A program made the translations under genes and the position numbers. A model generated the notes under the pieces. That model did not search any database. It was not told where the DNA came from and saw only the letters and a list, made by a program, of their open reading frames with translations. From the NCBI GenBank assembly GCA_003153435.1, contig PLYR01000115.1, forward strand, positions 1-53,427: 53,427 nucleotides of DNA. Reading direction: 5' to 3'. Source of the stretch: Bacteroidota bacterium. GTDB taxonomy: Bacteria > Bacteroidota > Bacteroidia > Palsa-965. Below are positions 35,059 through 44,811 of the stretch, piece after piece. Position 1 is the first letter of the stretch. Every line of letters starts with the position of its first letter.

Positions 35059-35229
35059 ATGAAAAAGATCAGCCTAGTAATTGCAGCAGCATTCCTCTTC
35101 ACAGGACTTTCTTTCGCTCAAGGCGACAAAAAAGAAACTAAGAAAGAAGATAAGAAAGAACAGAAGGATAAGAAGAAAGACAAAAAAGAAGACAAGAAAG
35201 AAGAAAAGAAAGCTGACAAGCCTAAATAA
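35059..35229 (+). CDS. Secreted Lys/Glu-rich microprotein
   Basis: 56-aa frame starting MKKISLVIAAAFLFTGLSFA, a clean signal peptide with likely cleavage near SFA-Q. The 35-residue remainder is 18 Lys, 6 Glu and 6 Asp, arranged as KKE/KKD blocks with no hydrophobic residues. It would be a highly charged, unstructured or single-helix peptide outside the inner membrane. An intrinsic terminator follows at 35270-35308, supporting a free-standing transcript. It precedes the 21-bp repeat array and the giant adhesin. Function unknown. Confidence 0.8.
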   Translation: MKKISLVIAAAFLFTGLSFAQGDKKETKKEDKKEQKDKKKDKKEDKKEEKKADKPK

Positions 35230-35308: not shown

Positions 35309-35366
35309 CCCCAAACGCCCACCCGATAACCGGTTTTACCGAATACTAATTTCCTGAAAAACTATA

Positions 35367-36101
35367 GAAAAGAAAAAACGATTAGCTGAGCTTCAGGAAG
35401 TACTCTTTAAAGTTGAAGAACCAGAGGTCTTAACTGAAAGAGTACTTCCTGAAGCGAATGAAGTGATAATAGAAACTAAGATGTGCTTCTCTTAGCTTAT
35501 GAAGTGAAGATATAAACTGAAAAAGTGTTTCCGCTAGCTCATGAAGTAAATATAGAAAGGGAGAAAGTGTTTTCTTAAGCTCATGAAGCAGGTGCACAAA
35601 CACAAAGAGTGGTTCCGGCAATTACGATTTTCTCTTCATTGGCTTCTTTACCCGATTTCCAAGCTCATGTACCCCCTGCTTAATTGGAGAGCGTGGTTAC
35701 GGAAACAGAGAAAGTGTTTATTTAAGCTTAGAAAGTAACTCGGTAAGCTTCTGTACCGTTTTCGTAAGCTTCCATTGGTCATGCATAAGTTTAAGAAAAT
35801 GGTATGGAAGCTTAAGAAAGTAGTTTGGAAGCTTCCATTTGTTCTTCGTAAGCTTAAGAAAAGGGTACGGAAGCTTACGAAAGTAGTTTGGAAGCTTCCA
35901 TTTGCATTTTGTTAGCTTAAGAAAACGGTAAAGAAGCTTATGCAGGTAGTATGGAAGCTTCCATTTGTACTACCTCAGCTTAAGAAAATGGTAGGGAAGC
36001 TTACGAAAGTGGTTTGGAAGCTTCCATTTGTACTTCATAAGCTTAAGAAAACGTTATGGAAGCTTACGAAATGGGTACAGTAGCTTAAGCTGTTCATTTC
36101 G
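35367..36101. repeat. 35-unit phased 21-bp tandem array with 42-bp and 63-bp higher-order repeats
   Basis: From 35367 to 36101 the sequence is built of 21-bp units kept in exact register. In 35493-35618 alternate units resemble each other (42-bp period). From 35764 to 36078 there are five copies of a 63-bp unit made of three 21-bp parts; copies start at 35764, 35827, 35890, 35953 and 36016. AAGCTT occurs 14 times between 35724 and 36065, always at the same phase. Some units form perfect 11-bp stems (TTCGTAAGCTT at 35845-35855 with AAGCTTACGAA at 35871-35881). One forward frame reads heptads that start Lys-Leu but is broken by several stops and has no start codon, so it is treated as non-coding. 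Confidence 0.9.
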
Positions 36102-36315
36102 TGACTTAGAAAGCTGGTTGCCAGGGGGTATTTTAACATATCTGGTACTCTTATGTGGTTATATTAAATTTACTAGCTTTGGGTGTTCATATCCCTGTTG
36201 AAATCAATTGACTATCCTGCTTCGAAAATGCTGGAATTTGCCAATATTTGCCTTTGAAACAATATAGACAGGCTATACGTACAAGAGTTAACCATTATTT
36301 TAAAGTATTATTGAT

Positions 36316-39300
36316 TTGAAAAGAACGCTACTTCTTTCCCTCTTTCTGTTTTCAGCGATAGCCTCATTTTCAAGGGGTTCGGATAAATATTGGGTAGGTG
36401 GCACCGGGCTATGGACTGACAAATTACATTGGTCAACAGTGAGTGGTGGCAAAGGGGGAACTGAGATCCCCAGGAAAGAAGACCGGGTGTTCTTCGATGA
36501 ATCCTCTTTCCAAGCCAAAAATCAGAAGGTAACACTCCCTGATTCCGTCTTTTGCAAAGACTTTATCTGTACCGGATCAAAATTTAAACCCGAATTTATT
36601 TCCTCAGGGATTAAACCTGTTCTTCAGATTTCAGGATCTTTCACACTTCCCACCTACAAACGAGTTAGCTTTCATTATAAAGGAACAATCGTATTTTCTT
36701 CCTCCTCTTCAGAAACCATTGATTTCAACAACAACCTTTTTGAAGGAACTCAAATCGTATTCAATGGTTCCGGCACCTGGAATCTTGAAAGCGATCTTAA
36801 TGCAAGTTCATCGACTTCCCTCGTCCATTTAAAAGGAACACTGAACACTCACAATTTTAACCTCTTTTTCGGAAATTATATCCGGGAGGGTAATGAAGTT
36901 GGGGAACTCTCTCTGGGAGAATCTAATATAACTATATACAAAGACTGGAAGATCCCTGTCTCCTCTTCCATGAATATTAGCTCTGACAAGGCCCGTTTTT
37001 TGTTTACAGATACTCGTTCTTTCAAACATTTTGATAGAAACGCATATCGAATCGGCAATAACATTCATATAGCAACGTCGTGCAACAATCCTCCTCTTAC
37101 AGTTGTTGTGACATCTGACAGTGTAATCTGTAACGGTCAATCAAACGGTGCCGTGCATGCTGTTGTAAGCGGAGGAAGCCCTCCATATAATTACAGCTGG
37201 AGTCCTTCAGGTTGTATTACACCCGATTGCTTTGGTCTTCCGCCACAAACCTACCTTGTTTCAGTTGGAGATGCGAACCCTGCAGACGGTGTTTCCTGTT
37301 CGATCGGCGTTTCGGCTCCCGCCCCTGTAGTTATCATTTTGACAATTCCTGTTCCTATAAGTTGTAATGGAGGATGTAACGGAACTGTAAAATCTACAGT
37401 GAATGGAGGATGTCAGCCCTATACTTACTCCTGGTTACCTGGAAATCAAACAACCACCTCCATCACTTCCCAGTGCACAGGAACTTATACTCTTCAAATC
37501 CTTGATTCTAAAGCCTGCCCTGCTCAGGCAATCAAGAATCTTCTCCAGCCTGCAGTCATTAACCCGATTGGAACCTATACGGTAATTGATTGTTTTGGTG
37601 CTTGCGATGGTATTGCAAGTGTCACACCAACCGGAGGAACAGGAGCATATACTTATGCCTGGACCGGACCTGGAGCTTACTCTGCCACCACGGCAACGAT
37701 TACCAACCTCTGTCCTGGCAATTACACCTGCTCGGTGACAGATGCCAATGGATGCGTTGCTCCAACTACCTTTGTTGCTTCAATCACTCAACCTGCTGCA
37801 CCGCTGTCATCAACTTTTACCACAGGAAATAATCCACTTGCATGTAGTGGTCAGTGTAATGCATCTACAAATGTGACTATGGCAGGAGGAACGCCTGGCT
37901 ATACCTATTCCTGGACTCCTGTAGCAGGTGCAACTTCAAGCCTCAACTCGCTTTGTATCGGAAATTATACCCTGGATGTTACTGATTTGAATGGATGTGT
38001 TTTTAGTACAGTCGTTCCTATAACCGGTCCACCCCCACTCATTGGGGCGATGTCACATACCGATGTAAACTGCAATGGAGGGGCAACTGGAACCGCTACT
38101 GTTACCCCTTCGGGAGGTACCGGAGCTTATACTTATTCCTGGTCCCCCGGAGCTCCAACAGGGCAGTTCACAACCGGAATAACTGGTCTTATTGCTCAAG
38201 AATACACCGTTTCTCTTACTGACAATATGGGATGCAATACGATAGATTCTGTTGCAGTTCATCAGGCATCCTTGATTTCCATCACCATCACTCCAACCAT
38301 GGTAACCTGCTTCGGAGCTGCAAATGGAATAGCTGTGGCTGGGGTTTCCGGAGGGACAGGAGCCTATACCTACTCCTGGTCACCTGGAGCACCTATAGGG
38401 CAGTTCACAAATACGATTTCAGGCCTCGCCCCAAACACATACACGGTGTTGGTAACCGATGCGTTTGGTTGTACGATGACCCAAACGATTGTGATTACCG
38501 AACCTGCTCTGCTTGTTGCAAATGCATCTGCAACCCCACAGAGTTGTGCATCCATATTTGATGGTACTGCCACTGCCAATCCTACCGGAGGTACCGGAGC
38601 ATATACTTATTCCTGGTCTCCGGGAGCTGCAACCACACAAACATTAACAAATCTTTCAGCGGGAAATTATACGGTTACGGTTACCGATGCAAGTGGATGT
38701 GTTCAGACTCAAGTGGTAACCGTCACGAGCCCCTTACCTATCATTGTTACTCTGACCGGTACGAATATTTCCTGCAATGGAGCTTGTGATGGGACGGCCT
38801 CCGCAAGTGTTTCCGGAGGGACAGCACCCTATATCTATGCCTGGACCCCTGGAGCTTCTCCCTTGACCGGAATCTCCTCTCTATGTGCAAATACTTACAC
38901 CTGCACAGTAACAGATGCAAATAATTGTCCTCAGGCACAAACGATCATCATAACAGAACCGGCTGTTCTGCTTGCAAACACAACAGCTACCCCAGCTTCC
39001 TGCGCCGGACTTTGTACCGGCACACTCTGCGCAGCTCCAACTGGAGGAACTATGCCTTACACCTATTCCTGGAGTCCGATAGGTGTAACAACAGCATGCG
39101 TGAATAATGTTTGTGCCGGAACTTATACAGCTACTGTCCAGGATGCAAATGGATGTTCCAACACTCAGGTTGTTATTGTCACCGCTCCAACTGCTGTTTT
39201 CCCTAATGTGTCGAAGACTGATATCGTCTGCTCCGGACAATGCAATGGAACTGCCACTTCAGCGGCAAGTGGAGGAACTGGGGTTTATACCTATAGCTGG

Positions 39301-42300
39301 ACTCCTGCCGGTTCTATTACCGTGGGTCAAGGCACGAGTTCCATTTCAAGCCTTTGTGCAGGTTCTTATACTTGTCAGGTTACTGATGCAAATGGTTGTA
39401 CCGGTACTCAAATCATCACTATCATCCAACCTTCGCTCTTGAATGCGTTTATATCCAGTACTACTCCAACCTGCGGAACTTGTCAGGGGGTTGCAACGGT
39501 AAACGTTTCAGGAGGAACCGGGGGATATAATTATTCCTGGAATTCAATACCTACTCAATCCGGACCTACCGCCACAAACCTTTGCGTTGGCACCTATACA
39601 GTAACCGTTACTGATGTTAACAGCTGTTCTGCAAGTGCTGTGGCAGTGATTACACAGACCGTGATCCTGAGCATTTCGACGACCAGTTTCAACTTAAGCT
39701 GCCACAATATTTGTGATGGTGCAGCCACTGCGAACACTGCCGGAGGATTGGCACCTTATGCATATACCTGGGCACCAGCTCCACCTGTAGGGCAAGGCAC
39801 ACAGAACGTTTCTGGTCTTTGTGCGGGAACTTATACTGTTACCGCTGTTGATGCCAATGGGTGTTTTAATTCCGCCACTGCAATCTTCACAAATCCAAGT
39901 CCCTTAAGTCCAACTATAACACCAGTTTCAGCTACCTGTAACAGCACCTGTAATGGCAGCATTTCCACGGTGGTTTCAGGTGGTACGGGGCTCTATACCT
40001 ATTCATGGGCCCCTGGTGGTCAGACAACCAGCTCCATTGCAAGTCTTTGTTCGGGTACCTATACTTTAACTGTTACTGATGCAAATGGATGTGACTCCAT
40101 TACCCCTATAATACTTGCTGCCCCGCCTCCTATTTTGCCAAACTCTACACTTACATCTCCAACAAGCTGTGCTAGTTGTGACGGATCTATTAGCGTTGCA
40201 CCTTCCGGAGGAGCTGTTCCTTACACTTATTCTTGGAGCCCAGCAGAACCGGCTACACCAACAGTTAACAATTTGTGTGCTGGATTATATACCGTAACCA
40301 TAACAGATAATTTTGGATGCGATACTGTAGTACCGATCGGACTAAATAGCCCAACCGGGCCAAATTCAGTCCTCACCCCTACTGCTGCAACTTGTAATGG
40401 AGTATGTAACGGTTCTGTCAGCTCTTCTGTTTCAGGAGGCAATCCTCCCTATGTTTCTTATACATGGATACCAGCACCAGCCGTTGGTCAGGGAACCTTG
40501 AATGCCTCCAGCCTCTGCGCAGGAGCTTACACTTTTGAAGTTATTGATAATATTGGTTGTATTCAATTTACCTCTACCGCAGTCACTGCTCCCCCAGTAC
40601 TTGTTTTGACTCCCGTTATAACCAATGTAAGTTGTAACGGAGCCAATGACGGCAGTATTACTGTGAACATGAGCGGAGGAACAATACCGTATACTTATAC
40701 TTGGACTTCAGGACAGGCTACAAACAGTATATCCGGACTTGCTCCAGGAAATTATACATTCACTGGTACTGATGCGAATGGGTGTTCGCAGACCGTTATT
40801 TATCCGATTACTCAACCGGGCATATTCACAGTAGCAATAACCTCCACAAATGTAACCTGTAATGGATTCTGTAATGGTTCTGCTTCCGCTGTCATCACCG
40901 GTGGTACTTCTCCATTCGCCTATTCATGGTCGAACGGAGCTCTTGTTTCGAATGTTTCCAACCTTTGTCCGACCACTTACACGGTAGTTGCAACAGATGT
41001 TCATGGTTGTACAGCAACTCAGACCTCACTGATTACAGAACCAGCTCCATTTACCGACATCATTACTTCTACTAATGCCACTTGTTTTGGGGTCTGCAAC
41101 GGAACAGCAATTGCTGTTGGCAGCGGTGGTACTGCACCTTATATTTTTACCTGGGCACCAGGTAATCAGATCATGGACACGCTTACCTCGATGTGTGCCG
41201 GCAATTATAGTGCAACAGGAAGTGATGCCCATGGTTGTGTTGCGATAGCGAGTGTAATCATAACAGAACCACCTGCAATCAATATTACACTCACTCCAAC
41301 CAATGCAACTTGTAGTGGTGTCTGTAACGGATCTATCCATTCTGTTACAAGCGGTGGTGTTGGTGCATATACCTATTCATGGTCACCTGGAGTTAATACG
41401 CTACCAGATTACAGTGGGCTTTGTCCTGGAACCTGGACTCTAACAGTAACCGATGGCAATTCCTGCAACGTTTCTCAGACAGCCAACATTTCACAGCCGG
41501 CACCCTTATTGGCAGGAAGCAGCGGAACAAACCCTGGCTGTAATGGATCCTGTAACGGAACCGCTACTGCATCACCTGTTGGTGGCACAGCACCTTACAC
41601 CTATTCCTGGTCGCCTACTCCCGGTGCTACAACTTCCATTAGTAGTCTATGTGCAGGTGCTTATACCGTAACTGTCAACGATGTGAATGGATGTGTAAAT
41701 GCACAGGTTGTAAATGTTGTTGATCCTGCTGCTATCTCTGGAACCTTTGCCGTAGGCAACTCGAATTGTGGGGTATGCAATGGAACCATGGGTATCATAC
41801 CTGCTGGTGGAACTATACCTTACACTTATTCATGGTCAACCACTCCTTCTCAGACCACTGCTAATCTGAATTCACTTTGTGCCGGGATTTATCTGGTTAA
41901 AGTTACCGATGTCAACGGTTGTAGCTCCACAATTGCTGCTCCTCCACTTAACAACACAGGTGGTCCTACTGCGGATACAATCCATACAACAAACCCGACC
42001 TGTTTCATGACTTGTAATGGTACTGCTAACTGTACACTCGTTGTTGGAGGTACACCAGCATTCACTTACGCTTGGTATGACTCTTTAAATAATAATCTTG
42101 CGCATACCCTACCGAACATCTCGAATCTTTGTGCCGGAGGCTACTTCCTGAAAGTCACTGATGTTAATTCCTGTGTCTACATTCAACGAGTAGAACTTGC
42201 CTCACCACCACCTGTCGTTGCAAATCCAGCTGTTCATTCACCAAGCTGTTCCGGAATATGCGATGGTAAGATTTCCCTGGCCCCGACCGGAGGAACGGGT

Positions 42301-44811
42301 GCATATACATATTCCTGGACCAGCCCCGTTTCAACGGCGGCCACTGTGACAAACTTATGCCCTGGGCCTTATACTGTTCAAATTACGGATGCCAATCTCT
42401 GTGCCTCGTCTTTCACTATTACACTGGCCCCTACTGTTCTTGTTTCCGGAACCTCCAGCCATACCAATCCAACCTGCTTCGGGGTATGCTCTGGTACAGC
42501 CACGGTGACCATGACCAGCGGGACTGCCCCATATACCTATCAGTGGTCAGATCCGCTCGCCCAGACCAGCCCAACAGCTACAGGCCTCTGTGCAGGAAAC
42601 TATTCTGTTACTGTTTTTGATGCACATGGTTGCAACATTGTTCAGGCAGATACGATTACGACCCCAGCTGCTCTAAGCGCTACACCTACTATAAACGGAG
42701 CATTGTGTGGAGTATGTAACGGTTCCATCAGTGTTGTCGCTTCTGGAGGTATAGTACCATATACTTATAACTGGAGTAATGGGTCACATATTGCTACAGC
42801 AAGTAATCTCTGCGCAGGTCTTTATTCTCTCGGTCTCACTGACGCGAACGGATGTTCTACATCGCCCACCTATCCGATCAGCAATACGCCCGGACCCGGA
42901 CCTTCTATACTAAACATTACAAATATTAACTGTAACGGAATCTGTAACGGAAGCGCAACTGTTACACCGGTGGGAGGAACGGCACCTTATAACTATAGTT
43001 GGACGGTTGGTGGACAAACTGTTCCCTCCATTGTTGGGCAATGTGCCGGACTTTACTACATCGAGGTAATCGATAAAAACGGTTGTATCCGGATTGATTC
43101 CGCTACCATCACTCAACCGCCTATTTACAATACGCATCAGATTGTCATCCCTACATCTTGTGCACTCTGTAATGGTTCCATCTCTTTGAATCCAACAGGG
43201 GGAAGCTCTCCTTATACTTATTCCTGGACAGGTGCTTTGCCACCATTATCAGCACAAAACAATCTGTGTGTAGGAGTTGATTCGGTGGTGATTACAGATG
43301 CAACAGGTTGTGCGCAGACATTCAGTATGGTCATCAACTCCTCAAACAGTCCATCGATAGTAAATTCCCTTAAGAACATCGTTTGTAATGGAAGCTGCAA
43401 TGGAAGAGACTCTGTGGTTGCAAGCGGCGGATCCGGTGGCCCTTACACTTATTTATGGGCACCTAGCCCTGGAGTAGGTCAAAATACACCTAACGGGTCA
43501 AGTATGTGCCCTGGAGCTTACATTGTTCAGGTAACAGATGGCTCCGGTTGTGCAAATTCTGTCAGCTTTACAGTTACTCAGCCCTCGGCCATATCGTTCA
43601 GTGCTCCACAACTGACTAACCTTGTATGTAACTCCGTATGCAATGGTAAAGCAACACTTAATGTTTCAGGAGGTTCTCCTCCTTACCTCTTTTCCTGGAG
43701 CCCTGGAAGTGGCTCTACCACTTTGACTGATTCTATGCTCTGTGCTGGAAACTATACGCTTCATCTGACTGATAATAACGCCTGTATCGACAGCCAGATG
43801 ATTACGATTACATCACCACCTGCACTTACTTTTACGAATACAATGGTTGCCCCTCCATGTGATAATGTGGCTACTGGAAGCATCATTACTCATCCAGCCG
43901 GTGGGGTTGCACCTTATGCTTATTCCTGGTCTGGCCCGAGCGGCTTTACTTCCACAAACATGAATCTGTTTGGATTGCTCGGAGGAGATTACACGTTAAC
44001 GGTGAAAGACACCAATGGCTGTCAACAAGTTATTGCAGATACGCTCAAGCCGTTAATCTCTATGGAAGCGAATGCCGGCCCTAATAAATCATTCTGTACA
44101 CTAGGCGCAGTGATGCTTGACGGTACCTTGAGCGTAAATGCTTCTTCATATGCGTGGTACCTGATGCCAGGCTTTTCTCCACTAGTAGGCGCGACCATGC
44201 AAACCATGGTAACACCCCCAGCAGGAGTTACAACCTATGCTTTGATCACCAGTAATTCAGGTTGTACAGATACAGCACAGGTTACAGTAACCTCTAACCC
44301 CCCACCAGTCGTCTTTGCAGGCGTGGACCAGAGTATTCTTACAAACGGAAGTGCCGTTATCGGTGGTAATCCTACCTGTCCTACTGGTGTTTTGTATCAC
44401 TGGACACCTTCGGCCACTGTAAATGATTCCTCCAATGCGAATCCTGACGTTCACCCATTCACAACCACAGTCTATACCGTTACGGTGACTGATGCAAACG
44501 GTTGTATGGCAAGTGATACCGTAATGATAACGGTACTTCCAGAGCTTATCATTTCAAATGGTATTACACCAAATGGAGACGGTGTGAATGACCGCTGGGC
44601 GATTGATAATATCCACAAATTCCCGAACAACGTTGTGGAGATCTATAACCGTTGGGGTGAATTATTATTCCAGGAAAAAAATTACCAGGATGACTGGGAT
44701 GGAACGTATAAAGGTCAGCCTCTTCCGGTTGGAACTTATTACTACCTGGTCAATTTGAATGATCCTCTTTATAAAACAAAATATTCAGGCTCAATAACCA
44801 TCATGAGATGA
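36316..44811 (+). CDS. Giant SprB-repeat adhesin, T9SS type B cargo
   Basis: 2831-aa cell-surface protein. TTG start (36316-36318), signal peptide MKRTLLLSLFLFSAIASFS. Residues about 24-255 form the N-terminal domain common in this class (KYWVGGTGLWTDKLHWSTVS, VFFDESSF). Residues 258-2582 hold 30 SprB-type repeats of about 77 residues, with core GGT-x-PYTYSW and TVTDANGC. Residues about 2583-2745 are two PKD-like modules. Residues 2746-2831 are a gliding-motility-associated CHU_C/type B sorting domain (NGITPNGDGVNDRW, VEIYNRWGELLF, GTYYYLV). The gene overlaps porP/sprF by 4 nt, as for SprB-SprF pairs. It likely acts in gliding or adhesion, but the exact ligand is unknown. Confidence 0.92.
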   Translation: MKRTLLLSLFLFSAIASFSRGSDKYWVGGTGLWTDKLHWSTVSGGKGGTEIPRKEDRVFFDESSFQAKNQKVTLPDSVFCKDFICTGSKFKPEFISSGIKPVLQISGSFTLPTYKRVSFHYKGTIVFSSSSSETIDFNNNLFEGTQIVFNGSGTWNLESDLNASSSTSLVHLKGTLNTHNFNLFFGNYIREGNEVGELSLGESNITIYKDWKIPVSSSMNISSDKARFLFTDTRSFKHFDRNAYRIGNNIHIATSCNNPPLTVVVTSDSVICNGQSNGAVHAVVSGGSPPYNYSWSPSGCITPDCFGLPPQTYLVSVGDANPADGVSCSIGVSAPAPVVIILTIPVPISCNGGCNGTVKSTVNGGCQPYTYSWLPGNQTTTSITSQCTGTYTLQILDSKACPAQAIKNLLQPAVINPIGTYTVIDCFGACDGIASVTPTGGTGAYTYAWTGPGAYSATTATITNLCPGNYTCSVTDANGCVAPTTFVASITQPAAPLSSTFTTGNNPLACSGQCNASTNVTMAGGTPGYTYSWTPVAGATSSLNSLCIGNYTLDVTDLNGCVFSTVVPITGPPPLIGAMSHTDVNCNGGATGTATVTPSGGTGAYTYSWSPGAPTGQFTTGITGLIAQEYTVSLTDNMGCNTIDSVAVHQASLISITITPTMVTCFGAANGIAVAGVSGGTGAYTYSWSPGAPIGQFTNTISGLAPNTYTVLVTDAFGCTMTQTIVITEPALLVANASATPQSCASIFDGTATANPTGGTGAYTYSWSPGAATTQTLTNLSAGNYTVTVTDASGCVQTQVVTVTSPLPIIVTLTGTNISCNGACDGTASASVSGGTAPYIYAWTPGASPLTGISSLCANTYTCTVTDANNCPQAQTIIITEPAVLLANTTATPASCAGLCTGTLCAAPTGGTMPYTYSWSPIGVTTACVNNVCAGTYTATVQDANGCSNTQVVIVTAPTAVFPNVSKTDIVCSGQCNGTATSAASGGTGVYTYSWTPAGSITVGQGTSSISSLCAGSYTCQVTDANGCTGTQIITIIQPSLLNAFISSTTPTCGTCQGVATVNVSGGTGGYNYSWNSIPTQSGPTATNLCVGTYTVTVTDVNSCSASAVAVITQTVILSISTTSFNLSCHNICDGAATANTAGGLAPYAYTWAPAPPVGQGTQNVSGLCAGTYTVTAVDANGCFNSATAIFTNPSPLSPTITPVSATCNSTCNGSISTVVSGGTGLYTYSWAPGGQTTSSIASLCSGTYTLTVTDANGCDSITPIILAAPPPILPNSTLTSPTSCASCDGSISVAPSGGAVPYTYSWSPAEPATPTVNNLCAGLYTVTITDNFGCDTVVPIGLNSPTGPNSVLTPTAATCNGVCNGSVSSSVSGGNPPYVSYTWIPAPAVGQGTLNASSLCAGAYTFEVIDNIGCIQFTSTAVTAPPVLVLTPVITNVSCNGANDGSITVNMSGGTIPYTYTWTSGQATNSISGLAPGNYTFTGTDANGCSQTVIYPITQPGIFTVAITSTNVTCNGFCNGSASAVITGGTSPFAYSWSNGALVSNVSNLCPTTYTVVATDVHGCTATQTSLITEPAPFTDIITSTNATCFGVCNGTAIAVGSGGTAPYIFTWAPGNQIMDTLTSMCAGNYSATGSDAHGCVAIASVIITEPPAINITLTPTNATCSGVCNGSIHSVTSGGVGAYTYSWSPGVNTLPDYSGLCPGTWTLTVTDGNSCNVSQTANISQPAPLLAGSSGTNPGCNGSCNGTATASPVGGTAPYTYSWSPTPGATTSISSLCAGAYTVTVNDVNGCVNAQVVNVVDPAAISGTFAVGNSNCGVCNGTMGIIPAGGTIPYTYSWSTTPSQTTANLNSLCAGIYLVKVTDVNGCSSTIAAPPLNNTGGPTADTIHTTNPTCFMTCNGTANCTLVVGGTPAFTYAWYDSLNNNLAHTLPNISNLCAGGYFLKVTDVNSCVYIQRVELASPPPVVANPAVHSPSCSGICDGKISLAPTGGTGAYTYSWTSPVSTAATVTNLCPGPYTVQITDANLCASSFTITLAPTVLVSGTSSHTNPTCFGVCSGTATVTMTSGTAPYTYQWSDPLAQTSPTATGLCAGNYSVTVFDAHGCNIVQADTITTPAALSATPTINGALCGVCNGSISVVASGGIVPYTYNWSNGSHIATASNLCAGLYSLGLTDANGCSTSPTYPISNTPGPGPSILNITNINCNGICNGSATVTPVGGTAPYNYSWTVGGQTVPSIVGQCAGLYYIEVIDKNGCIRIDSATITQPPIYNTHQIVIPTSCALCNGSISLNPTGGSSPYTYSWTGALPPLSAQNNLCVGVDSVVITDATGCAQTFSMVINSSNSPSIVNSLKNIVCNGSCNGRDSVVASGGSGGPYTYLWAPSPGVGQNTPNGSSMCPGAYIVQVTDGSGCANSVSFTVTQPSAISFSAPQLTNLVCNSVCNGKATLNVSGGSPPYLFSWSPGSGSTTLTDSMLCAGNYTLHLTDNNACIDSQMITITSPPALTFTNTMVAPPCDNVATGSIITHPAGGVAPYAYSWSGPSGFTSTNMNLFGLLGGDYTLTVKDTNGCQQVIADTLKPLISMEANAGPNKSFCTLGAVMLDGTLSVNASSYAWYLMPGFSPLVGATMQTMVTPPAGVTTYALITSNSGCTDTAQVTVTSNPPPVVFAGVDQSILTNGSAVIGGNPTCPTGVLYHWTPSATVNDSSNANPDVHPFTTTVYTVTVTDANGCMASDTVMITVLPELIISNGITPNGDGVNDRWAIDNIHKFPNNVVEIYNRWGELLFQEKNYQDDWDGTYKGQPLPVGTYYYLVNLNDPLYKTKYSGSITIMR
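37087..44061 (+). repeat. 30 tandem SprB-type protein repeats, Cys-rich
   Basis: In-frame repeats inside the adhesin. Consensus features in order: Cys-N-G-x-Cys-N-G, GGT-x-PYTYSW, LCAGTYTV, TDANGC. The first Cys and the final Cys are present in all 30. A second pair (second Cys of CxxC and the Cys of LCAG) is present in 24 and absent from 6 (repeats 1, 5, 6, 7, 16 and 30), never singly. Four repeats (11, 14, 21, 25) and repeat 27 shorten CxxC-type spacing to CxxC with a residue missing before it, yet keep both pairs. Confidence 0.9.

Follow-up and report, generated by a model that had tools for sequence, protein, structure and literature searches.

What kind of element is the 735-bp array of 21-bp units that lies between a microprotein gene and a giant adhesin gene in this window (the whole 53,427-nt stretch of DNA analysed here), and what holds its units in step? 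The array is real, non-coding and satellite-like at the DNA level, with a genuine register, as the first-pass annotation had read it. Dinucleotide shuffles have a mean self-identity of 0.266 (sd 0.007) at lags of 21–126 bp; the array reaches 0.489 (z 33). Exactly 14 AAGCTT sites fall within 35367-36101, all in a single phase of 21, out of 38 across the whole window. The 21-bp signal exceeds chance in the 5′ part (z 6.4), the core (z 4.5) and the 3′ part (z 23). The higher-order structure noted earlier was also recovered with Tandem Repeats Finder, as a 63-bp unit at the 3′ end (35766-36071, 4.9 copies, 83% matches) and a 42-bp alternation in the diverged 5′ part (35432-35588, 3.8 copies, 72%). 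The annotated count of 35 units holds as a description of the register but not as 35 similar copies, the 5′ end and core being weakly repetitive (lag-21 identity 0.39–0.41) while nonetheless keeping the register. In the 3′ domain, bodies of 15 bp between AAGCTT hubs are oriented −,+,+ through every 63-bp unit; the reverse complement of CCATTTGTACTTCAT is ATGAAGTACAAATGG, and ATGAAGTACAAATGG in turn is similar to the plus-strand bodies AAGAAAATGGTATGG and ACGAAAGTAGTTTGG. As the AAGCTT hub is palindromic, both body orientations fit one register. Coordinates are collected in Table 1.

Table 1. Window positions of the array (copy C13), its parts and its flanking features.
Feature	Position	Strand	Evidence or remark
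Whole element, copy C13	35365..36119 (about)	+	End-to-end homology with the contig C51 copy
5′ terminal stretch, common to C13 and C51 only	35365..35387	+	
5′ domain, 42-bp alternation, diverged	35388..35578	+	Tandem Repeats Finder, six-copy alignment, z 6.4
Core, unit order recognisable in all six copies, e.g. GAAGCAGGTGCACAAAC...CTCATGTACCCCCTGCTTAA	35579..35742	+	Alignment
3′ domain, 63-bp higher-order units made of 21-mers with an AAGCTT hub	35743..36090	+	Bodies −,+,+
All 14 in-phase AAGCTT palindromes, first to last	35724..36065	.	
Left flank: secreted Lys-rich microprotein gene, outside the element	35059..35229	+	Orthologue in congener G003, no array after it
Right-flank motif ATATCCCTGTTGAAATCAAT	36189..36208	+	Also about 130 bp past the terminator in G003 (empty site)

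The array is one of six in its genome. A DNA search of the 4.0-Mb assembly (149 contigs) retrieved five further copies, on contigs C51, C136, C119, C33 and C59. Alignment of all six displays an identical order of non-identical units, running through 5′ domain, core and 3′ domain, with length differences from copy to copy that are mostly gaps of 21, 42 or 63 bp. Misassembly, a possibility raised when the array was first described, is unlikely because six copies with different flanks have one unit order. The C51 copy matches the full query (positions 1-735) at 77% identity, and its homology with C13 extends from TAGAAAAGAAAAAACGAT through to CTTAGAAAGCTGGTT. About 18 bp of the 5′ stretch common to these two copies overlaps, in C51, the last codons and stop of a host gene (...EKKKR*). 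This stretch may be host sequence transferred from C51, a reading of A-rich sequence that is not conclusive. No common inverted ends were found across the copies, whose flanks are too diverged to define target duplications. A hairpin repeat, AAGGAGAGAAACAGAAACAGAGCGGAGAGCG, follows the C59 array (L159:1115-1260) and has relatives near C136 and C92. The C59 tail was considered as a common element end and rejected, since the hairpin recurs near other loci but generally not at array ends.

All six copies are intergenic, with unrelated neighbour genes and mixed orientation to them. C13 lies between the microprotein and SprB-type adhesin genes, C51 between genes for a Met/Cys-rich protein and a permease, and C119 between a short-chain dehydrogenase (SDR) gene and a convergent gene; the neighbours of the remaining copies include an ArsR-type regulator, a lipoprotein and a gene that, by our own reading, is pirin-like. 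Two of these sites are empty in congeners. At the C51 locus, the genes for the ABC-F protein, the Met/Cys-rich protein and the permease follow one another in conserved order in G001 and G002, and in place of the array there is no more than about 130 bp with a terminator-like hairpin. At the window locus, G003 has the microprotein gene, the terminator and the motif ATATCCCTGTTGAAATCAAT, again without the array. A third candidate, the SDR-gene locus of C119, lacks the array in G002 but is weak evidence, its downstream synteny being broken. Because congeners are without the array at the window and C51 sites, and the copies occupy unrelated intergenic spaces, the array is mobile: the block entered six intergenic gaps once the lineage had separated from its sister species and congeners, with presence and absence at empty sites established between species only. 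DNA searches found no related copy in 38 relatives, three congeners among them, and no match to the array in plasmids or phages, on which ground a phage or plasmid origin was rejected.

Other arrays with AAGCTT at similar spacing provide a comparison. The same genome holds a second family (family B; C98:57253-57609 and C121:68155-68652) of 42-bp AAGCTT units, which has CGTAAGCTTAAGAAA in common with the window array. Its two loci (L160:1754-2110 and L161:1656-2153) have a common diverged 5′ flank, and one copy contains an assembly gap (NN). The genomes G001, G332 and G350 were reached through a scan for the AAGCTT pattern, so that its matches, over 100, are pattern-selected. In the congener G001 (62% complete) there are 113 triple matches with AAGCTT at 21–42-bp spacing, against 0 for the reversed-pattern control, and the family there is built on a different unit, AAGCTTAGTAAACATGTCGGG; G002 to G011 have none. 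The G001 arrays at L193, L194, L195 and L063 end in a conserved 3′ sequence, TGTCTCTGGCTGGACCAACATGCAGCAGTCATTCGATCTCTGCC, and an IS110-like transposase gene, identified by eye, directly follows the array at L195. The Chitinophagaceae genome G332 contains several AAGCTT/21-bp families. The Bacteroidales genome G350 contains a dispersed, non-coding-looking element of ~650 bp made of 21-bp AAGCTT units, present at about eleven loci (L182-L192) in two subfamilies with 80–87% identity within them. Among 297 Bacteroidota sampled without bias, AAGCTT spacings were mostly random and AAGCTT arrays rare. A general AAGCTT class across phyla was therefore rejected, and only multi-family cases count as support. 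Separately, intergenic 21-bp arrays of AAGCTTCGTGAATGAACCTCA and its variants occur in several Nostoc strains in both orientations (L027, L043, L081, L085).

The register itself is constrained. A count that needs no alignment places 109 of 114 AGCTT hubs in a single phase for the copy they belong to. The six-copy alignment contains about 599 substitutions (star count) and no more than two indels of a length other than a multiple of 21. A second, gap-permissive aligner introduced many small compensating gaps, which the hub phases identify as alignment noise and not as lasting register shifts. Neutral indels arise at some 0.02–0.1 per substitution. By this general yardstick, 30–60 indels would be expected at 5–10% of substitutions and 12 at 2%; for the 5′ part and core alone, the rate of 0.02 gives a weak P of 0.05. 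Within the 3′ domain, divergence between copies is 0.067 at the hub AGCT and 0.28 in the body (Mann-Whitney p 1.4e-7), while in the 5′ domain the hub is not more conserved than the body. Conservation of the hub could be explained by exchange between units that all have it, and for this reason the register is the stronger argument. The array sequence is known from one genome only, and the constraint was measured between the copies within it.

A mobile, non-coding satellite element of ~0.75 kb combined with selection on spacing at the DNA level has, as a joint explanation, about an even chance of being correct. A DNA-protein spacing mechanism, reached by elimination, is put forward tentatively, at somewhat below that level. 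With no consensus RNA fold, no Rfam match, low predicted curvature and no excess of promoters or terminators seen in the array, the constraint looks like one of DNA spacing. Selection would then act on the recurrence, every 21 bp or two helical turns, of a palindromic hub, which in the 3′ domain is AAGCTT. A putative symmetric DNA-binding protein would find its repeated sites on one helix face and polymerise along the array, and the resulting complex might insulate the nucleoid around it, tether it or give it structure. The bodies would be free in direction and free to drift, the hub being palindromic, while changes of register would not be tolerated. Candidate agents of dispersal are a transposase, recombination or reverse transcription. 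Intrinsic curvature, which had been proposed from the helical phasing, is not supported: a wedge model predicts less curvature than in shuffles for every one of the six copies, and A/T-dinucleotide power lies chiefly at 5.25 and 4.2 bp, not at 10.5.

The main rival is a selfish or neutral satellite without cellular function that spreads by copying in whole 21-bp steps, so that the register reflects manufacture and upkeep and not host need. The array is recent, lineage-specific and absent from relatives, its copies differ by 21, 42 and 63 bp, a congener carries a different family, and an unrelated Bacteroidales genome has its own dispersed ~650-bp family of 21-bp AAGCTT units, all of which such spread would account for. 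However, at 20–30% divergence neutral copies should have accumulated many 1–2-bp indels, and the near-absence of these extends to the non-homogenised 5′ part and core; nor was a transposase or clear terminal inverted repeat found for the array copies. On this evidence a selfish or neutral origin is a possibility to be taken seriously, if on the unlikely side.

Function as RNA is considerably less probable. On this reading the array's transcript would be long and strongly folded, acting as a stability element, as a sponge or as a source of processed small RNAs, and transcription has a precedent in the 52-nt satellites of Bacillus coagulans (PMC8625621). Every copy does fold better than dinucleotide shuffles (z −3 to −11), and a single-stranded DNA fold gives z −9.4, but the two strands fold about equally well, which is to be expected of any array with inverted units. 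A single conserved fold was rejected, its covariation term being unfavourable (+6.2), and shuffling the unit order costs little fold energy in C119 and C59. An Rfam search of the window returned tRNA only, with no family matching the array, and the mixed orientation to neighbour genes likewise argues against an RNA role.

Very improbable, finally, is a decayed or cryptic coding repeat, formerly a gene family of Lys-Leu heptads (coiled coil). One frame of the window array does read Lys-Leu heptads, with stops and no start as annotated, but every frame is interrupted by all three types of stop codon and the frames of the 5′ and 3′ domains disagree. Substitutions between copies have no codon-position bias: by codon phase, mismatches amount to 0.33/0.37/0.31 for the 5′ domain and to 0.30/0.23/0.24 for the 3′ domain. 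When the frame that most resembles a protein was used in a translated search of 59 genomes (its own and 58 relatives), only the array's own copies matched and no intact parent was found; no Pfam or PHROGs match passed the threshold, and two congener sites are empty. Neither the Lys-Leu frame nor the 'EKVLPEVNEV' frame of the 5′ domain is accordingly considered coding. The different family of G001 speaks for such an origin: its Lys-Leu frame is open throughout at the four loci and its unit variability looks codon-like (0.123/0.039/0.166 at positions 1/2/3). Against this, its arrays have no conserved start codon, and two of them differ by eight substitutions that are spread 3/2/3 over the codon positions. 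Pfam matches of that family are many, all of them generic coiled coil.

The view that no named element has this form also requires revision. Subirana and Messeguer described noncoding bacterial tandem repeats of constant size, 20–23 or 52 nt (PMC8161180). Their sequence is specific to the species, genomes hold several families, and the repeats contain characteristic short sequences; 20–21 nt equals two helix turns, and protein polymerisation on DNA or small RNAs were suggested (PMC8161180). For the 20–23-nt class PMC8161180 cites J Bacteriol 2020, 10.1128/JB.00229-20. The window array is likewise 21 nt, intergenic, non-coding and species-specific (stops in all frames, 38 relatives without a match). 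Its 21-bp register over 735 bp, with 42- and 63-bp units, agrees with the repeat length and the four or more tandem copies of that class, and family B, with CGTAAGCTTAAGAAA, provides a further family with a common short sequence. The array is very probably a mobile member of this class. It differs from the described satellites in being an ordered composite copied whole to six loci, two of them empty in congeners, and in having units in both orientations around a palindromic hub with a measured register constraint. Whole-composite transposition, two-orientation units round a palindromic hub and a measured register constraint were not found described.

Related noncoding satellites dispersed within one genome, with transposition inferred, are known from Leptospira interrogans and Methanocella conradii (PMC6749651), but those repeats exceed 30 nt (37, 46 and 69 nt), whereas the units here are 21/42/63 bp and empty sites are demonstrated. 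REP/BIME/REPIN elements resemble the array in being intergenic, palindromic, dispersed and strongly folding as DNA, although the array has continuous 21-bp units over about 0.75 kb in place of tagged 20–40-bp hairpins. MITEs are also short, dispersed and non-coding with empty sites, while the array copies are without clear common terminal inverted repeats. CRISPR loci are regular intergenic repeat arrays too; here there are no unique spacers, every base is in the 21-bp register, and the array moves.

The 20–23-nt satellites are an acknowledged puzzle, combining constant length with no conserved sequence. Two congeneric species with different AAGCTT families, together with insertions confined to the lineage, copies in a fixed unit order and the register constraint, make the question 'why 21?' testable in terms of protein spacing, replication mechanism or RNA. 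The array in addition documents noncoding satellite transposition, called rare in prokaryotes (PMC6749651). It is doubtful that the array represents a new kind of mobile non-coding element, one that transposes as an ordered scaffold with an AAGCTT hub and 21-bp quantisation. Its recurrence, with unrelated bodies, in four or more lineages of Bacteroidota (this species, G001, G332 and G350) would then suggest that a conserved protein reads AAGCTT dyads on one helix face, for nucleoid structure or segregation.

The genes on either side lie outside the element. The left-hand microprotein (56 aa, secreted, rich in Lys, Glu and Asp) is probably the product of a real gene and is kept in G003 together with its terminator (locus L198). 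Directly downstream of the array, 36316-44811 encodes a 2831-aa surface protein from a TTG start; it contains 29 stretches of SprB repeats and a CHU_C domain of type IX secretion.
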